Source: Chromobacterium haemolyticum DSM 19808 | GTDB taxonomy: Bacteria; Pseudomonadota; Gammaproteobacteria; Burkholderiales; Chromobacteriaceae | Length of the DNA stretch: 64,000 nucleotides | Direction: 5' to 3' | NCBI RefSeq assembly: GCF_000711885.1 | Contig: NZ_JONK01000004.1 | Coordinates: 62,001 to 126,000, forward strand | Shown here: piece by piece, positions 50,710 through 57,503 of the stretch | Layout: the number at the start of each line of letters is the position of its first letter | Numbering within the stretch: position 1 is the first letter of the stretch | The notes under the pieces: model-generated | What the model was told of the DNA's origin: nothing | The model's input: the letters and a program-made list of their open reading frames with translations, nothing else | Databases searched by the model: none | Position numbers and translations under genes: made by a program

Positions 50710-50742
50710 AAAAAAAGCCGCGCACCATTCGGCGAGCGGCTT
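50710..50742 (-). terminator. Terminator on the minus strand
   Basis: On the minus strand AAGCCGC, a 14-nt loop, GCGGCTT and T-run. It would end transcripts from the truncated membrane protein gene at 51023-51367. Between 50743 and 51022 I see only lower-G+C DNA with no supported gene. Confidence 0.6.
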
Positions 50743-51022
50743 GGCCGTGTTGTTGGTTTACAGCGTTCGTGAAAAATATGGCCATTTATTTGTAATGGTT
50801 TTTCATCTCCGTGCTCATGTGCCAAGCCCGTGAGTGCGCCGGCTACATGAAAAGACCCTACAAAATTTGCGCTCTCCGTGAAAATTTTGTCGTCGGTTAC
50901 AGCAAATCAATCACTTACAGATATAGCGCCAATGAACTATCAGCAGCCCATCTACCCCAGGTTTTGGCCGCGGGTGGGCCGTTTTGGCGTGAGTTCTTCC
51001 TCTGCCGGCTTATGGGATGTCG

Positions 51023-51367
51023 TTAAATGATTGACTCGCCAAGTTTCTTCAGCCTGGCGAAGTACATGACAAAGGCCGCCACAAAGAATGCGTCACCAAT
51101 GACCACAAGTATGGCGAAGTCTGATGTCCATCCATTTTGAAGCATGTATAAGAGGTTCAGTGCAAACAGAGCCTTACCAATGCCGCCCATAAACACGATG
51201 CCGGTGTGGCGTATGGGGTTGGATGCGACCATCAAGAATCCGAATCCATATAGGAGCGCAGTGCCCCACGCTCCTCTATAGACAGCGACCAACACCGGAT
51301 CAGTCAATTCACGTCCAAATTCACGCGCAAACATGCCGGCGCTATCGAGCAGTCCGGGGATGGCCCC
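51023..51367 (-). pseudogene. Membrane protein gene truncated at its 5' end by an IS element
   Basis: An ATG-initiated frame of 103 codons (51334 to 51023) continues upstream without a stop for 11 more codons (GAIPGLLDSAG) up to the exact IS boundary at 51367, so the original start has been lost. The residue pattern shows three or four membrane helices (AWGTALLYGFGFLMVAS, GIVFMGGIGKALFALNLLYML, FAILVVIGDAFFVAAFVMYF). It resembles small DUF4345-like membrane proteins. Codon use is less G+C-biased than in flanking core genes. Confidence 0.65.
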
Positions 51368-51430
51368 TGAATCGCCCCTCCTTTCCTAGACACTTCAAGA
51401 GCCTCACACTAGGCCCAGCAAGGAGGTGTC

Positions 51431-51709
51431 ATGAGCAGGCAGCGTTTCCCCGAAGAGTTCAAGATTGAAGCCGTCAAACAGGTCACTGAACGCGGCTATC
51501 CCGTCGCCGAAGTAGCCAGCCGTCTCGGCGTATCTGCCCACAGCCTGTATCAATGGCTGAAACGCTACGACCCCACGCGCGCCAAACCGGCCGAATCAGT
51601 AGACCAGCAAGCCGAAATCCGCCATCTCAAGGCAGAGCTGAAACGGGTCACCGAGGAACGCGACATCCTAAAAAAGGCCGCCGCATACTTTGCCAAGGAG
51701 TCCGGGTAA
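51431..51709 (+). CDS. IS3-family transposase OrfA
   Basis: The 92-residue protein has the helix-turn-helix FPEEFKIEAVKQVTERGYPVAEVASRLGVSAHSLYQWLKRY and a leucine-zipper-like coiled coil (EIRHLKAELKRVTEERDILKKAAAYFAKE). It binds the IS ends. The programmed -1 frameshift heptamer near its 3' end would fuse it to OrfB. Confidence 0.92.
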   Translation: MSRQRFPEEFKIEAVKQVTERGYPVAEVASRLGVSAHSLYQWLKRYDPTRAKPAESVDQQAEIRHLKAELKRVTEERDILKKAAAYFAKESG

Positions 51710-52580
51710 GGTATGCCTTCATCCGGGCCCACGAGCAGCAGTTTCCAGTCCGACGACTGTGTCGTGTCATGTCAGTGCATCCCAGCGGCTACTACGCCTG
51801 GAAAGCGTCCCCGCATTCACTCCGCGCCCGCGAAGACCAACGCTTGCTGGGGCAAATCAAGCAGGCTTGGCTCGAGAGTGGCGGTGTCTATGGCTACCGC
51901 AAGGTGTATGACGACCTGCAGGCTCAGGGGGAGCGCTGCGGCAAACATCGTGTGGCACGGCTGATGAAGCAGGAGGGCCTGCGTTCGCAGACGGGCTACC
52001 ACCGGCGCCCTGGGCATTACAGTGGCCGCCCGGCAGTGGTGGCGCCGAACCACCTGCAGCGCCAGTTCACCGTCGATGCGCCGAATAAAGCCTGGGTGAC
52101 CGACATCACGTATATCCGCACGCATGAGGGGTGGCTGTACCTGGCGGTGGTGCTCGACCTGTTCTCGCGACAGGTCATTGGCTGGTCGATGCAGTCACGT
52201 ATCGATAGAGAGCTGGTGCTGAATGCCTTGTTGATGGCGGTGTGGCGACGTCAGCCCAAGCAGGAGGTGCTGGTGCATTCCGACAGGGGAGTCAGTTCAG
52301 TAGTTACGACTGGCAGGACTTCTTGAAGGCCCATCGCTTGGTACCCAGCATGAGCCGGCGAGGAAACTGCCACGACAATGCCGTGGCGGAGAGTTTCTTT
52401 CAGCTACTGAAGCGGGAGCGCATCAAGCGAAAAACCTATCACGACCGGGAAGAAGCCCGCCGTGACATCTTCGATTACATCGAGATGTTCTACAACCCGA
52501 AACGCCGGCATGGTTCCGCAAACGGGCTATCGCCGGTAGAGTTTGAGAAGCAATATTTCCAACGGCTCAAGAGTGTCTAG
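51670..52580 (+). pseudogene. IS3-family transposase OrfB, inactivated by a frameshift
   Basis: After the -1 shift site the frame encodes a DDE integrase: HTH_21-like region, then WVTDITYIRTHEGWLYLAVVLDLFSRQVIGW (first Asp) and VLVHSD (second Asp). At 52284/52285 one base is missing from the expected GAC-CAG junction: the frame derails just after HSD, and GSQFSSYDWQDFLKAHRL...NAVAESFFQLLKRE, with the catalytic Glu, continues in another frame to 52580. The catalytic triad is therefore split and the element is probably not autonomous. Confidence 0.88.
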
Positions 52581-54507
52581 AGAAGCCGGGGCGATTCAGT
52601 GAAAGGGTCTGCTGAACCGCTTTTGGAGACGCTGGCTCTGCATCTAGACTTGCTGTCTGAGCCTGCTGAGAGTTAATACCTGATAGCCTAGCCGACTGTT
52701 TTCGTTTTTTGAGCTTCTTGCTGGCAAGCTGCTCGCCGATTACCTGACGAATCTGTTCTTTGGCTTGGGCGCGTTTCAGGGGATCGGTTTCGGATAGGCC
52801 GGCTTCGCGCAACTCTTGGCAAATAAGCTGATGGACTTCCAGGCGAAGGCCCGAGGCGTAGTCGAATTCGACCGCCGGTACTTTGATTGCTTCCCCGGTG
52901 TCAGGATGGACCACGTAGATGTGGCCAAGGTCAGCCCGGTTGTATCGAACCTGTACGGTTACCTTTTCTCCATACTGGTGGCGGATCGGATAGACCTCCC
53001 GGCTGTTGTAACGCAGGTTGAACAGCTCGATGCCGTAGTGCCAAAGTACCCGTTCTTCCCCTTCGGTCAACGCAACATCCAGCACTTTCAGATTCGGTAA
53101 GGCGGGTGGGTTGTCATGGGTGCCGTCCTGCCACATTCCCAGAGGCGTACGCTTGAGGCCACGATGAAACTTGACCGAGTACACGTCGACAATCCAGATG
53201 TGTAGGGCATGCATGAGTTCGTCGAATGTGGCCACGGCGGTTTTCAGCGGATCGTATCCATGGCGTTCCATCCAGTTGGAGAGGCTGGTTCCTGCCTGTG
53301 CATGCAGAAAGTTGCGAGAGATTGAGCCAAAGGCCCGCTCGACCATCCCTTTGAAATACGGTTTTCGCTTGGGGCAGAACTGCAGGATGATGCCTAGCTC
53401 GAAGCACGCCTGCTCCAGGGCACGGCTATGAAATTCCAGGCCATTGTCGCAGACCAGTGTCTGCATGAGTCCGAAGCATGGCCAAGTACCCTCGACACGT
53501 GAGTAGTGTTCGCTAACGTAGGCCTTCGGCAGGATGGTATTCCGTAGGTAGCCGAACACCGCCTCAGTGTTTGGTCCGCCGAAGCTGACGTAGATGCCGA
53601 GAATCATCCGGCTCTTCCGGTCGATGATGACGGTTAGCCACGGGCGGCCAAATGGCATTCCATTTTTTTCGTCTACGACAAATAGATCTACTGGTGTGTG
53701 GTCGACTTCAGCGGTTTCCAATATGAACTTGGCTTTGGGGCTGCCCAAGCTAGTGCGGAAGCGGAGTGACGCTTCTTGCTTGCCAAATTTGGCCACAGCC
53801 TGTTCGTAAGCAGGGTAGGCAAGGACTGCCCGACGTACGGTGTCATAACTTGGTAGAAGCAAGGTGTTATCGGGTGCACGCACTTGGTTCAAGGCATGAA
53901 TACGGACACGTAAGGCGTCATGAAGATCCACAATGCTAAATCCCGGTACTTCCAGATAGCGGGTCTCGATCAGCTCAATGAGCGCTTCCTGAACCTCGGT
54001 CGGGAAGCGGCAGCCAAACCATCCACGGGAATAGGGCTTTTCCAGCAAAGCGAGTGGATGATCATCATGCTGCAGCTTTTTCTTGAACCATCGGTAGATA
54101 GTTACAGTCGAGGGTACCTCAGGGTCTTCAAGTTGCTGAGCGATGCGTTCGAGAAGTGGCCGGAGCTTGGCTGGAGTGAAGACGATCTTATTCCCCATGG
54201 CCGAGAGCGCATCCAGATATTTTTTCCTCCGTAACGCTTCATCAATCGCCTTTTGCGGATAATTGCACAAGGTATCCGGATGTATACGGTTCGGCCCGGC
54301 AGCGGACGGAAGGTCGGCGATCGGCTTGGATGTAATGCGCCCGGCTGCCCATAGTTCCAGAAGCTGCTGCTTGGTGTGCTGGTACACCACCAAAGAGGCG
54401 ATATCCTCCAGGGTCACAAGGTTGCCGTTGATCACCCGGACGACGCTGACTTCTCGCCCATCCAAAAGGAAGGTGCTGCCTTGGTTAAAGCGAATTGACG
54501 AAGACAT
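52567..54507 (-). CDS. TnsB-like DDE transposase of a Tn7-like element, 3' end replaced by IS sequence
   Basis: The 646-codon frame has an N-terminal DNA-binding half, an rve/DDE core with Asp in TAEVDHTPVDLFVVDE, Asp in TLVCDNGLEFHSRAL and Glu in YFKGMVERAFGSISRNF, and a Mu-transposase C-terminal barrel (EVYPIRHQYGEKVTVQVRYN). The last native residues are about ...AVQQTLS; the final 11 codons lie in the IS3 right end (from 52598). The C-terminal segment, which in Tn7 TnsB contacts TnsC, is therefore missing. tnsA lies upstream with a 23-bp overlap. No tnsC, tniQ/tnsD or tnsE is present. G+C is clearly below that of core genes. Confidence 0.85.
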   Translation of the reverse strand: MSSSIRFNQGSTFLLDGREVSVVRVINGNLVTLEDIASLVVYQHTKQQLLELWAAGRITSKPIADLPSAAGPNRIHPDTLCNYPQKAIDEALRRKKYLDALSAMGNKIVFTPAKLRPLLERIAQQLEDPEVPSTVTIYRWFKKKLQHDDHPLALLEKPYSRGWFGCRFPTEVQEALIELIETRYLEVPGFSIVDLHDALRVRIHALNQVRAPDNTLLLPSYDTVRRAVLAYPAYEQAVAKFGKQEASLRFRTSLGSPKAKFILETAEVDHTPVDLFVVDEKNGMPFGRPWLTVIIDRKSRMILGIYVSFGGPNTEAVFGYLRNTILPKAYVSEHYSRVEGTWPCFGLMQTLVCDNGLEFHSRALEQACFELGIILQFCPKRKPYFKGMVERAFGSISRNFLHAQAGTSLSNWMERHGYDPLKTAVATFDELMHALHIWIVDVYSVKFHRGLKRTPLGMWQDGTHDNPPALPNLKVLDVALTEGEERVLWHYGIELFNLRYNSREVYPIRHQYGEKVTVQVRYNRADLGHIYVVHPDTGEAIKVPAVEFDYASGLRLEVHQLICQELREAGLSETDPLKRAQAKEQIRQVIGEQLASKKLKKRKQSARLSGINSQQAQTASLDAEPASPKAVQQTLSLNRPGFSRHS

Positions 54508-55195
54508 AGTCGTCCTCCTGTTCTGTCAAAGTGATCACAGTGTCCGTGGTGATGGGCCGATCAAGATCACAGCTCACCAGTCCATGAGCGATCAGGCGCA
54601 TGATGGCCCCCAAGTTTCCAAGCTCCTGCGAAAGCTGGTTTATAGTTGCCCGGCCGCCATGGCTAAATTGGCTGAGTAGTTGCTGCCTTGCCAGCCGGTC
54701 CTCTAGTGAGAAAGGTTGACGCAAGTAACGGTGCAACTGCTTGAGGTTGTCTAGCCGATGCGGTGCTCGAATGGAGTCGCTTGAGAGCACGATGAACTCG
54801 TGGCCTTGGTGCTGCATGGCATCACGGATGTGTCGCAGCTTTTCGTTAACGTCCGGCCTGGCCAGGGAGCGCGCCGGTTTTACCTCAACGATCAAAATCG
54901 AGCCGTCCCTTATCGTCAGGGCGTAATCAGGGGTATAGCGCCGGACTTTATTGCCCATCGCGTATCGGAGCTTGAACGGCTGCTCCTTGATATCGACAAC
55001 TTGTGGAGTAAAGTCGAATAGGTATAACGCATCGCGTTCTAGTAACTGTTCGAACCCAACCATTCGTCTTGCTGTGACGGATGGGAAGCTGCCACGAATA
55101 ATGGTTCCTGTGGGTGCGACGATTTGACGAGCTGGCGAATGCGTTTCTCTCTGCCGACCTGGCCATGGGCCAGTAGCATGTATTAGATATGTCAT
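54485..55195 (-). CDS. TnsA-like endonuclease of a Tn7-like transposon
   Basis: The 236-residue product has a PD-(D/E)XK nuclease core: Glu in MVGFEQLLERDALYLFDF, Asp in RRYTPDYALTI and the EVKP lysine motif in ILIVEVKPARSLARPD, matching the E-D-K catalytic set of TnsA. A C-terminal winged-helix-like region (GGRATINQLSQELGNLGAIMRLIAHGLVSCDL) follows. TnsA makes the 5' cuts that allow cut-and-paste transposition with TnsB. GGAGAG precedes ATG 55195. Confidence 0.85.
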   Translation of the reverse strand: MTYLIHATGPWPGRQRETHSPARQIVAPTGTIIRGSFPSVTARRMVGFEQLLERDALYLFDFTPQVVDIKEQPFKLRYAMGNKVRRYTPDYALTIRDGSILIVEVKPARSLARPDVNEKLRHIRDAMQHQGHEFIVLSSDSIRAPHRLDNLKQLHRYLRQPFSLEDRLARQQLLSQFSHGGRATINQLSQELGNLGAIMRLIAHGLVSCDLDRPITTDTVITLTEQEDDYVFVNSL

Positions 55196-55312
55196 TGTTT
55201 CTCTCCGATTTCGTTAGCGAGAGGACGTGACTATGCCTCTCGACACAACGAGTTCGCTTTAAAAAGACAAACGGAGCTTGACCTTAGGGGGAGAGGGAAC
55301 GATACTTGGCTT

Positions 55313-55397
55313 GTCGAAGGCCCTTTATGTATCGAGTTCGGCTCGTATTCCTAAAGGATCAAGTGAGGGTAGGTGCGAAAGCACCTACCCTTTTCTT
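55313..55397 (+). ncRNA. Possible short transcript with a strong terminator, beside tnsA
   Basis: TTGACC (55278-55283), a 17-bp spacer and GATACT (55301-55306) form a promoter-like site. About 55 nt after the predicted start a perfect terminator follows: GGGTAGGTGC, GAAA loop, GCACCTACCC, TTTT. The intervening sequence has a CGAG-TTCGG-CTCG hairpin and no ORF. It could be a small RNA or an insulating terminator inside the transposon end. The rest of the 730-bp tnsA-lysS gap (55398-55698) is AT-rich with no gene seen. Confidence 0.35.
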
Positions 55398-55698
55398 GTT
55401 TGTCAGCTGGAAAGGCTTTGCAGATTCCTTTATTGCGCTAATGGATCTCCTCCGTTATTGATGCGTGGCTTCAAATTGTATAGTAGCTATATTCGGGGGT
55501 TTTTAGGTGGAATATATTAGACGCTACAGCAAAGATTTCCAATTAAAATATTTTAATTTCAACTGGCAGAGTGTATTTCCGACGATATTGTGAAATAAAA
55601 AAACTAGTATTGTGATACAAAAAATTCAGAAATTTGGCTAATATCCCTTTGGGCTAATTTGAATATGCCCGGAGTGATGGATAAGGAATAGTAGAAAT

Positions 55699-55900
55699 AA
55701 AAAAGCCCCGATTTAAAGTCGGGGCTTTTTTTGAGCAAACACTCTGTTTTTCACCTAAATGCTGAAAATTTGCATCAACTCTGCAAACCTACACGACGGG
55801 ACGTAAAAAAGCCCCGCACAGTGGCGGAGCTTTTTTAGAGCCGAGTAATATGGATTTCTCACTTTTTGCAAAAAAATCCCATTAACTCTGCAAACCTACA
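55699..55900. repeat. Imperfect tandem repeat of about 106 bp: terminator hairpin plus a conserved 17-mer
   Basis: Two units have the same layout. Unit 1 has hairpin GCCCCGA/TCGGGGC flanked by A6 and T7 (55699-55732) and ends in AACTCTGCAAACCTACA (55777-55793). Unit 2 has hairpin GCCCCGC/GCGGAGC (55805-55836) and ends in the identical 17-mer (55884-55900). The middles have diverged. On the minus strand each 17-mer reads TGTAGGTTTGCAGAGTT, beginning with TGT as Tn7-type ends do; the outer one lies 25 bp from lysS. It may be a transposon end or a duplicated lysS terminator. Confidence 0.6.
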
Positions 55901-55925: not shown

Positions 55926-57431
55926 TTATTCCGGACGCATTTGCGGGAACAGAATGACATCGCGGATGGACGGCGCGTCGGTCAGCAGCATGACCAGACG
56001 GTCGATGCCGATGCCGCAGCCGCCGGTGGGCGGCAGACCGTATTCCATCGCGCGGATGTAGTCGGCGTCGTAGTGCATTGCCTCGTCGTCGCCGGCATCC
56101 TTCTGCGCCACTTGGGACAGGAAGCGCGCGGCTTGGTCTTCCGGGTCGTTCAACTCGGAGTAGCCGTTGGCGTGTTCGCGGCCGACGATGAACAGTTCGA
56201 AACGCTCGGTCAGGCCCGGCTTGCTGTCGGAGCCGCGCGCCAGCGGGGACACTTCCACCGGGTAGTCGATGATGAAGGTCGGGTTCCACAACAGGCTTTC
56301 GGCACATTCCTCAAACAGCGCCAATTGCAGGCTACCGAGGCCCGGCGCGGGAGGAAGCTTGCCGCCCAGGCGCTTGATCTCGCTGGCCACCCAGGCCGCG
56401 TCGGCCAGTTGAGCGTCGGTGTACTGCGGGTTGTAGTGTTTGATCGCGCCGACGATGGTGAAGCGGTCGAAGGGCTTGCCCAGGTCCACTTCCTTGCCTT
56501 GATAGCTGACGGTGGTGGAACCGCAGGATACCAGCGCGCATTCGCGGATGATGGTCTCGGTCATCTGCATCATGCGCTGGTAGTCGCTGTAAGCCTCGTA
56601 GAATTCGATCATGGTGAACTCGGGGTTGTGGCGCGTGCTCATCCCTTCGTTGCGGAAGTTGCGGTTGATCTCGAACACGCGTTCCAGGCCGCCCACCACC
56701 AGGCGCTTCAGATACAGCTCAGGCGCGATGCGCAGGTACAAGGGCATGTCCAGCGCATTGTGGTGGGTGACGAAAGGCTTGGCCGCGGCGCCGCCCGGGA
56801 TCGGGTGCATCATCGGGGTTTCCACTTCCAGATAGCCTTCGCCCACCATCACGTCGCGAACCTTCTGGATGATCTTGGACCGCTTGATGAAGGTCTGGCG
56901 GCTGTCTTCGTTCATGATCAGGTCGGCGTAGCGCTGACGGTACTTGGTTTCCTGATCGGTGATGCCGTGGAATTTCTCCGGCAGCGGGCGGATGTTCTTG
57001 GACAGCAGGCGCACTTCGCTGGCTTGTACCGTCAGTTCGCCGGTCTTGGTCTTGAACAGGGTGCCTTTGACGGCGACGATATCGCCCAAGTCCCAGTGCT
57101 TGAACTCGGCGTGCAGTTCTTCGCCCACGCCGTCATTGGAGATGTAGGCCTGAATGCGGCCGCTGCCGTCTTGCAGCGTGGCGAAGCTGGCCTTGCCCAT
57201 CACACGTTTCAACATCATGCGGCCGGCGACGGCAACCTCGATCTTTTCGGCTTCCAGCGCTTCTTTTTCCTTGCCTGCGTGAGCGTCCTGCAGGACTTGC
57301 GCGAAGTGGCTGCGCTTGAAGTCGTTGGGGAAGGCGATACGCTGTTCGCGGATGCTTTTCAGCTTTTGGCGGCGTTCCGCCATGATCTGGTTTTCGTCCT
57401 GGCTAGGCGATGTTTGCTCGTGTTCAGACAT
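55926..57431 (-). CDS. lysS: Lysyl-tRNA synthetase, class II
   Basis: LysS charges tRNA-Lys. The 501-residue product has the OB-fold anticodon-binding domain ([32 protein letters not shown]) and class II motifs: motif 1 around [20 protein letters not shown], motif 2 [20 protein letters not shown], motif 3 [16 protein letters not shown] 57431 follows GGAGTG; an in-frame ATG six codons upstream is less likely. It is 72 bp downstream of prfB on the same strand. Confidence 0.97.
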
Positions 57432-57503
57432 GTTCACTCCGTAATTCAATGCAATGGCTGTTGGCCGCCGCGCGGGCGGCGACCGGGTTAAGCGAGTTTA
57501 GGC

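Follow-up and report, generated by a model that had tools for sequence, protein, structure and literature searches.

A decayed Tn7-like transposon behind lysS in Chromobacterium haemolyticum and the family of elements that probably homes there

Introduction

In its TnsD pathway, Tn7 combines TnsA, TnsB and TnsC with a large selector of the TniQ family and inserts behind glmS, with its right end nearest the target gene and a 5-bp target site duplication (TSD). Insertion occurs about 20 bp past the stop of this conserved gene (PMC2918618). Other Tn7-like elements home by TniQ/TnsD to parE and tRNA genes, and also to yhiN and comM (examined part of PMC11406308), and defence genes are found among their cargo (examined part of PMC8649781). 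Protein-guided homing behind a conserved gene is therefore an established Tn7 theme. Here we analyze a 64,000-nucleotide stretch of Chromobacterium haemolyticum DSM 19808 (contig NZ_JONK01000004.1, positions 62,001 to 126,000; hereafter the window), in which tnsA and tnsB lie next to lysS. It is very probable, in our view, that a Tn7-like transposon has decayed at this locus and that the family to which it belongs homes just behind lysS.

The lysS family shares TnsA, TnsB, TnsC and a large TniQ protein with Tn7, and defence cargo and, probably, protein-guided attachment-site homing with the TniQ/TnsD-homing elements. It differs from Tn7 in its target, which is lysS rather than glmS, and in its distant TnsB (64 bits). 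By sequence, the closest solved TnsB and TnsA proteins are those of the type I-F3 transposons associated with clustered regularly interspaced short palindromic repeats (CRISPR), or CASTs (Tn6677 and PseCAST), but the lysS family has one large TniQ, no CRISPR array that we could find and no Cas family among those listed for it. The same gene end serves as a safe site for integrative and conjugative elements of Streptococcus, which use another enzyme, a tyrosine integrase, and insert inside the 3′ end of lysS (examined part of PMC4701971). As natural Tn7-like sites, lysS, gyrB and msrB are absent from the examined material of PMC11406308; two large Tn7 surveys (PMC10293859 and PMC8649781) use neither "lysS" nor "lysyl" in their main text, and msrB appears in the examined part of PMC10201428 only as an engineered Escherichia coli target. 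We found no literature joining Tn7-like elements to a lysS attachment site or to Chromobacterium, in a search that subscription papers mostly lay beyond.

Results and Discussion

A family of elements behind lysS

Among 61 genomes of the window's family, a TnsB at least 67% identical to that of the window (67-94%) is encoded in seven genomes (G003, G004, G005, G008, G022, G033 and G058) besides the window's own (G000), and every other match is at most 47% identical. Named loci among these relatives come from Aquitalea magnusonii, Aquitalea sp. LB_tupeE and a Neisseriaceae metagenome-assembled genome. All seven have the order prfB-lysS-tnsA-tnsB and, as judged by gene order, carry an intact tnsABC-tniQ set at the same lysS spot. 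A tree built from 24 TnsB sequences groups the eight lysS elements in a single clade with support of 100/100.

In the eight elements, the distance from the lysS stop to the right tip is 19, 23, 24, 24, 24, 25, 27 and 28 bp, always with the right end nearest lysS. The tip sequence, TGTAGGTTTGCAGAG, is exact except in G022, G033 and G058, which depart from it at one or two positions, and the relatives show TGT...ACA ends with a 5-bp TSD. The left tip can be read in six relatives, which are 17.3-23.1 kb long (the G008 contig ends before it), and five of the six (G003, G004, G005, G022 and G058) have an exact TSD, the sequences being GTTGC, CCAGC, AAACC, TCAAT and GCACC; in G033 four of five positions agree (GCTGT/GCCGT). 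When the flanks of G022 and G058 are joined, they closely match the element-free lysS sites of G015 and G056. Wherever an unoccupied site can be compared, insertion has occurred between the lysS stop codon and the native terminator, and an intact right end brings a terminator of its own.

Because the close copies all come from one bacterial family and one locus, they might be taken to descend from a single ancient insertion behind lysS that was inherited vertically, with no repeated homing. We regard this as very improbable, since the TSDs differ between elements, which contradicts a single insertion, and sister species have unoccupied lysS sites. Moreover, TnsB similarity crosses genera: the window TnsB is 94% identical to that of G004, from another genus, and 80% identical to that of G022, from the same genus, whereas the corresponding LysS values are 91% and 99%, a disparity that points to horizontal movement of the element. 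Two right ends are present in G000, and just beyond the left tip of G004 there is what looks like an old right end, so the same spot has apparently been hit repeatedly.

An earlier reading of the window made from its letters (the sequence-only reading) had proposed the 3′ side of lysS as a possible attachment site, in the geometry that Tn7 has with glmS, and recommended looking for related tnsAB genes behind lysS elsewhere. That search yielded the seven relatives with their TniQ proteins, cargo and conserved ends. The proposed site is upheld by all eight elements, the window's included, through the TSDs, the unoccupied sites and the intact tnsC and tniQ genes of the relatives, and the Tn7-glmS geometry holds equally in 8/8, with the right end nearest the gene in a fixed orientation. 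The same reading named two kinds of contrary evidence, homologues at unrelated sites and lysS regions free of insertions. Four relatives are placed at other genes, with TnsB at most 52% identical (most relatives below 52% are unplaced), while the lysS clade itself is at lysS in every case; and lysS regions with no right end are common (44/57), as expected of a homing element, and supply the pre-insertion sequence.

The probable target selector

Site choice is most likely made by a TnsD-like TniQ. Intact members encode a single TniQ of ~640 residues with a helix-turn-helix part, and Pfam, run on the G004 copy only, found TniB (TnsC, of the TniB-type AAA+ group), TniQ and HTH_17 domains; the domain make-up of the predicted TniQ fits a TnsD-type selector. 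Acting as TnsD does, TniQ would bind lysS at its conserved 3′ coding end, recruiting first TnsC and then TnsAB.

Several points weigh against a lysS-homing family guided in this way. The binding of TniQ to lysS is itself a prediction, and an AlphaFold model of TniQ, made with three sequences, was discarded at a predicted local distance difference test (pLDDT) of 33.9. A search of 399 genomes of the order with the lysS-type TniQ (E ≤ 1e-40) returned six places in five genomes, namely the query, one 64% copy and four at 34-41%, and outside the family there was a single relative, 41% identical and located at gyrB. In the class, 369 genomes searched at E ≤ 1e-50 gave a single match, the 34% relative that the window genome itself encodes. 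With matches this scarce outside the family, lysS specificity rests on one family. The window copy also lacks a matching TSD, as the flanks read AGGGC at the outer right end, CGTCG at the inner right end and ACACG at the left; nested insertions and decay may explain this. Finally, left-end-like sequences occur away from lysS, at L124:10009 and C1:158055 (both on G044:C1) and at L125:10543 (G033:C1:674543), and no transposase of the lysS clade was found beside them. Among the matches listed, these sequences have no partner right end (at most one mismatch), and the G044 contig that carries two of them has open reading frames (ORFs) that by eye are ParA/ParB-like. In a plasmid search, the 20 best of at least 5000 records were 26-34% identical.

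More distant members of the TnsB tree are found at other genes. The sister of the lysS clade is an element at gyrB (G289; TnsB 52%), which the order-wide search recovered by its TniQ. Another clade unites unplaced members with the two elements placed at msrB, one of which is on contig C15 of the window genome, and G010, with right-end-like sequence after gyrB, lies outside. These findings extend the list of safe gene ends for protein-guided Tn7-like elements by lysS and, through the relatives, by gyrB and msrB, and the monophyletic lysS set makes specificity accessible to study and to use in targeted insertion.

The remnant in the window

The features of the locus are collected in Table 1. Pfam domains and gene order bear out the sequence-only reading in placing tnsA and tnsB next to lysS. 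That reading took the catalytic residues to be complete, which is correct for the catalytic core: acidic residues of the window TnsB align with solved Tn6677 and PseCAST TnsB (the closest being Tn6677, at 213.8 bits) and those of TnsA with solved PseCAST TnsA, and we take the aligned positions to be the active-site residues of these proteins. The C-terminus, however, is not complete. Only 52600-54507 of the tnsB frame is transposon DNA, the final ten residues and stop being sequence of an IS3-type insertion sequence (IS), and the C-terminal tail, which reads PRQFKTS[ST]HPLGKG in six of the seven intact copies and PKQFKTSSHPLGKG in the seventh, is gone. Neither tnsC nor tniQ accompanies tnsAB, as had been noted, and a TniQ search of the window genome (E ≤ 1e-40) returned only the 34% relative on contig C15. 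A transposon end expected just past the lysS stop is indeed there, beginning at 55900, 25 bp beyond the stop, with its terminator 69-92 nt from the tip. A second right tip is also present, such that another right end lies between the tnsAB element's own and lysS. The extent first given, 52567-55900, is thus right at the lysS side and too short at the other, where the remnant runs on to a degenerate left end that aligns over 124-192 bp with the left-end stretches of six relatives, at 71-75% identity; the whole remnant covers ~50751-55900.

Table 1. Features of the lysS-side transposon remnant, in window coordinates (TIR, terminal inverted repeat).
Feature	Position	Strand	Details
lysS, target gene	55926-57449	-	Pfam tRNA-synt_2 and OB-fold; adjoins element in 8/8 genomes
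Outer right end, remnant of a second insertion	55809-55900	-	TIR TGTAGGTTTGCAGAG at 55886-55900, exact, then intrinsic terminator
Inner right end of the tnsAB element	55699-55793	-	Exact TIR 55779-55793; intrinsic terminator 55731-55699; aligns with G004 right end
Candidate small RNA gene	55278-55400	+	Promoter TTGACC-17-GATACT 55278-55306; predicted two-hairpin transcript; terminator ~55365-55400
tnsA	54485-55195	-	Pfam Tn7_TnsA-like_N, E=1.6e-12; PDB alignment
tnsB frame	52567-54507	-	Pfam Mu-transpos_C; rve slightly under gathering score
IS3-type insertion sequence	51367-52599	+	Pfam HTH_Tnp_1, HTH_21 and rve; inverted ends CTGAATCGCC
103-residue ORF, presumed residual cargo	51023-51334	-	Between IS and left end
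Degenerate left end	50751-50892 (about)	-	TIR 50751-50765, 3 mismatches in terminal 15 bp to family TIR
Displaced native lysS terminator, beyond left end	50710-50742	-	Hairpin and T tract, by eye in joined flanks

The IS3-type element is presumed to mark the edge of a deletion of tnsC, tniQ and most cargo. An IS insertion with an adjacent deletion would account for the missing TnsB tail as well, and with these parts lost the window copy looks dead and is probably immobile. Inspection of the ends and flanks of the IS revealed no 3-bp direct repeat. The IS orfB (51553-52580) is divided between two frames, and the IS itself may therefore be inactive. The 103-residue ORF has no Pfam match and no tblastn match among the fetched relatives.

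A candidate small RNA diverging from tnsA

IS10 RNA-OUT and the plasmid RNAs CopA and RNAI are short, stem-loop, countertranscribed RNAs whose promoters face away and that lie near or overlap the leader of the gene they oppose. A candidate RNA with a similar layout is predicted beside the different kind of transposase encoded by the lysS elements. It is predicted to be 75-100 nt long, with its own promoter and an intrinsic terminator. The pattern TTGACN-17/18-GATACT, followed by a hairpin and a T-rich tail ending 75-100 nt on, is present in 20 of 21 distinct tnsA leaders (22 stretches, one locus being included twice), and the promoter pattern occurs in 0/440 shuffled leaders. A total of 1.29 Mb, counted over both strands (loci longer than 9 kb and the window), contains 17 promoter patterns, of which 16 are in tnsA leaders, three of these duplicating a record already included, and the last is elsewhere and has no terminator. 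Folded one by one, nearly all the candidate RNAs are predicted to form both a middle and a terminator hairpin.

A first covariance model (R1), built from seven non-lysS loci, was used to search 48 sources (659,651 bases) and gave 26 matches at E ≤ 1, with 25 at E ≤ 0.01. These 25 comprise the seven training loci, one second copy of a training locus and 17 others, among which are the window (E=8.3e-5) and seven of seven lysS relatives. All are upstream of tnsB where tnsA sits, with tnsA itself confirmed separately in all but L021, L022 and L158, and the model matches elements at lysS, gyrB and msrB sites. It missed L020, which nonetheless has the promoter pattern and hairpin; L155 (Pseudomonas putida), with a looser promoter match and a terminator; and L049 (G010), whose leader looks rearranged and shows no RNA pattern. 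L154, L156 and L157 have no outward promoter-terminator pair. A second model match (E=4.2e-7) stands beside the first at L015:4090-4206.

A second model, made from all 26 R1 matches and used on the 399 order genomes, found 39 places at E ≤ 1e-3. A tnsA-like ORF diverges nearby at 15 of 16 fetched loci with E ≤ 5.8e-6 (one of these ORFs is weak, E=7e-4), and at nine of ten strong loci that took no part in model building; G415 has no such ORF even within 14 kb of its strong match. Among the weaker matches (E 4.1e-5 to 5.6e-4), 14 loci were fetched, and tnsA stands beside none of them. Nothing convincing was found outside the order in 398 genomes of the phylum, where six matches (E 4.7e-7 to 7.2e-6) were taken as chance as no tnsA lies within the fetched stretch; the weak matches inside the order may likewise be chance. 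The model alone already finds such transposons and hence can serve as a marker. At E ≤ 1, Rfam has no match overlapping the candidate (55278-55400).

The candidate small RNA is most likely an antisense controller of tnsA, and transposition in the wider clade would probably be restrained by this RNA, whose gene diverges from tnsA and spans the tnsA leader. If it does control tnsA, it would show how this branch keeps its transposase quiet. We found no description of small-RNA control for Tn7-type elements, including in the examined part of PMC7043111, subscription papers again being mostly beyond the search. An unlikely alternative is that the block is an operator of inverted protein-binding sites rather than an RNA gene. 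By eye, the lysS clade alignment does contain two inverted CTTGA...GATAC arms, with five outer and five inner pairs, and the transcript is a prediction from the sequence of the block. However, the promoter spacing is constant at 17-18, a T-rich tail comes after the final hairpin on a single strand, and the hairpins covary, with 19 of 21 pairs changing on both sides (score 0.573, versus 0.228 when shuffled and at most 0.171 when slid) in an alignment that was fitted to the model and so leans towards it.

The sequence-only reading had raised the possibility of a guide-RNA-directed family, which in CAST-like form would make this RNA the guide. A conserved structured RNA candidate lies inside the element, and among solved TnsB proteins the closest belongs to a type I-F3 CAST. 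We nevertheless give this idea almost no credence, and a guide role for the RNA is unlikely. The test for three exact 21-mers finds no CRISPR-like array in the eight oriented loci or in the window, where the same reading had already seen none; the families listed for the cargo (25 of 315 and 25 of 38, from 64 ORFs) include no Cas family; and the element has one large TnsD-like TniQ. Furthermore, the longest run shared by or complementary between the RNA and the lysS site (the terminal 160 nt of lysS and a further 45 nt) is 6-9 nt, within the shuffle range in 8/8 elements (24-200 of 200 shuffles being equally long), and the same RNA model fits elements at three different genes.

Other structures were considered for the leader. 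With 18 RNAs aligned by MAFFT, RNAalifold recovered no more than a weak terminator helix; the arms were thought to be misaligned, and single-sequence folds and the covariance model were used instead. In a consensus fold of the tnsA-strand leader, covariation contributes next to nothing to the energy (-0.08), and no structure is proposed for that strand. Inspection of the lysS-clade leaders by eye also raised the idea of a leader peptide that uses rare start codons, which was abandoned. In 11 of 30 leaders with a readable promoter, a ribosome-binding-like motif on the tnsA strand is followed by ATG and a stop near the RNA, a post hoc count made without a shuffle control; in L126, L019, L020, L167, L168, L169, L173 and L174, ATG-TAA follows such a motif within a few bases near the small RNA 3′ end. 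These motifs hint at a tnsA-strand transcript that crosses the region.

Solo right ends and the lysS terminator

The lysS gene was located in 59 of the 61 family genomes and its downstream sequence read in 57 (G041 and G043 lack the motif used). A right end follows lysS in 13 of the 57, eight with tnsAB and five (G035, G036, G045, G047 and G060) without a TnsB of this clade; degenerate look-alikes such as that of G051 were excluded. The contig stops 0.3-0.6 kb on in G047 and G060, and no left tip (at most three mismatches) lies within the 20 kb fetched for each of the other three. Of 14 right-end stretches, 13 contain a terminator-like hairpin with a T tract that a script could find; it begins 60-70 nt into the stretch and stops at 86-99 nt, and the same hairpin is seen by eye in the fourteenth (G033).

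One hypothesis is that selection keeps a terminator behind lysS. All five solo right ends tested reach through the hairpin and T tract, and in G035 and G045 this hairpin is the sole terminator-like site on the lysS strand within 321 bp (the downstream hairpin of G045 being on the opposite strand). It is quite possible, though we lean away from it, that these terminators survive decay only because deletions happened to start there, with the need of lysS for a terminator being irrelevant. The solo right ends are few, and a stricter, simple terminator scan, which lists the hairpin in G035 and G045, misses it in G036 and G047 although the script found it. The solo ends with their terminators suggest that host genes can become dependent on transposon ends. 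More broadly, we propose tentatively, as an idea that could well prove right or wrong, that throughout a branch of Tn7-like transposons in the window's order (Burkholderiales), whatever the target, the transposase genes are controlled by a dedicated countertranscribed small RNA in the manner of RNA-OUT or CopA, and that right-end terminators replace the displaced one, so that solo right ends outlive the transposon.

Cargo and neighboring elements

Directly after tniQ, five of the seven intact elements carry an exonuclease-like gene resembling Rv2179c (e.g., L036:11288-11785), beyond which the cargo varies between elements. The families listed for it include Septu- and Gabija-type ATPases, type I restriction, ABC-3C, GmrSD, AbiH and ubiquitin-like proteins.

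The window genome has other Tn7-like genes. On contig C15 (L048:7780-14252), an intact-looking tnsABC-tniQ set with a 43% identical TnsB lies directly behind msrB (SelR). On contig C12 (L129), a third, distant TnsB-like ORF of 910 residues is followed by ORFs of 340 and 426 residues, near a type I methylase-like gene.

Other kinds of sequence are found at the lysS end in further genomes. Phage-type integrase genes start 26-170 bp from lysS in G011, G050 and G052 (L085, L112 and L139), so tyrosine-integrase islands probably share the same gene end. G025 (L089) has two lysS 3′ ends ~1.2 kb apart, one copy with a stop, which fits an island flanked by duplicated gene ends. The lysS site may be a wider defence hotspot. 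In G028 (L095) and G027 (L099), SIR2-like and DUF262-like ORFs, defence-like by eye, stand directly behind the lysS terminator with no right end.

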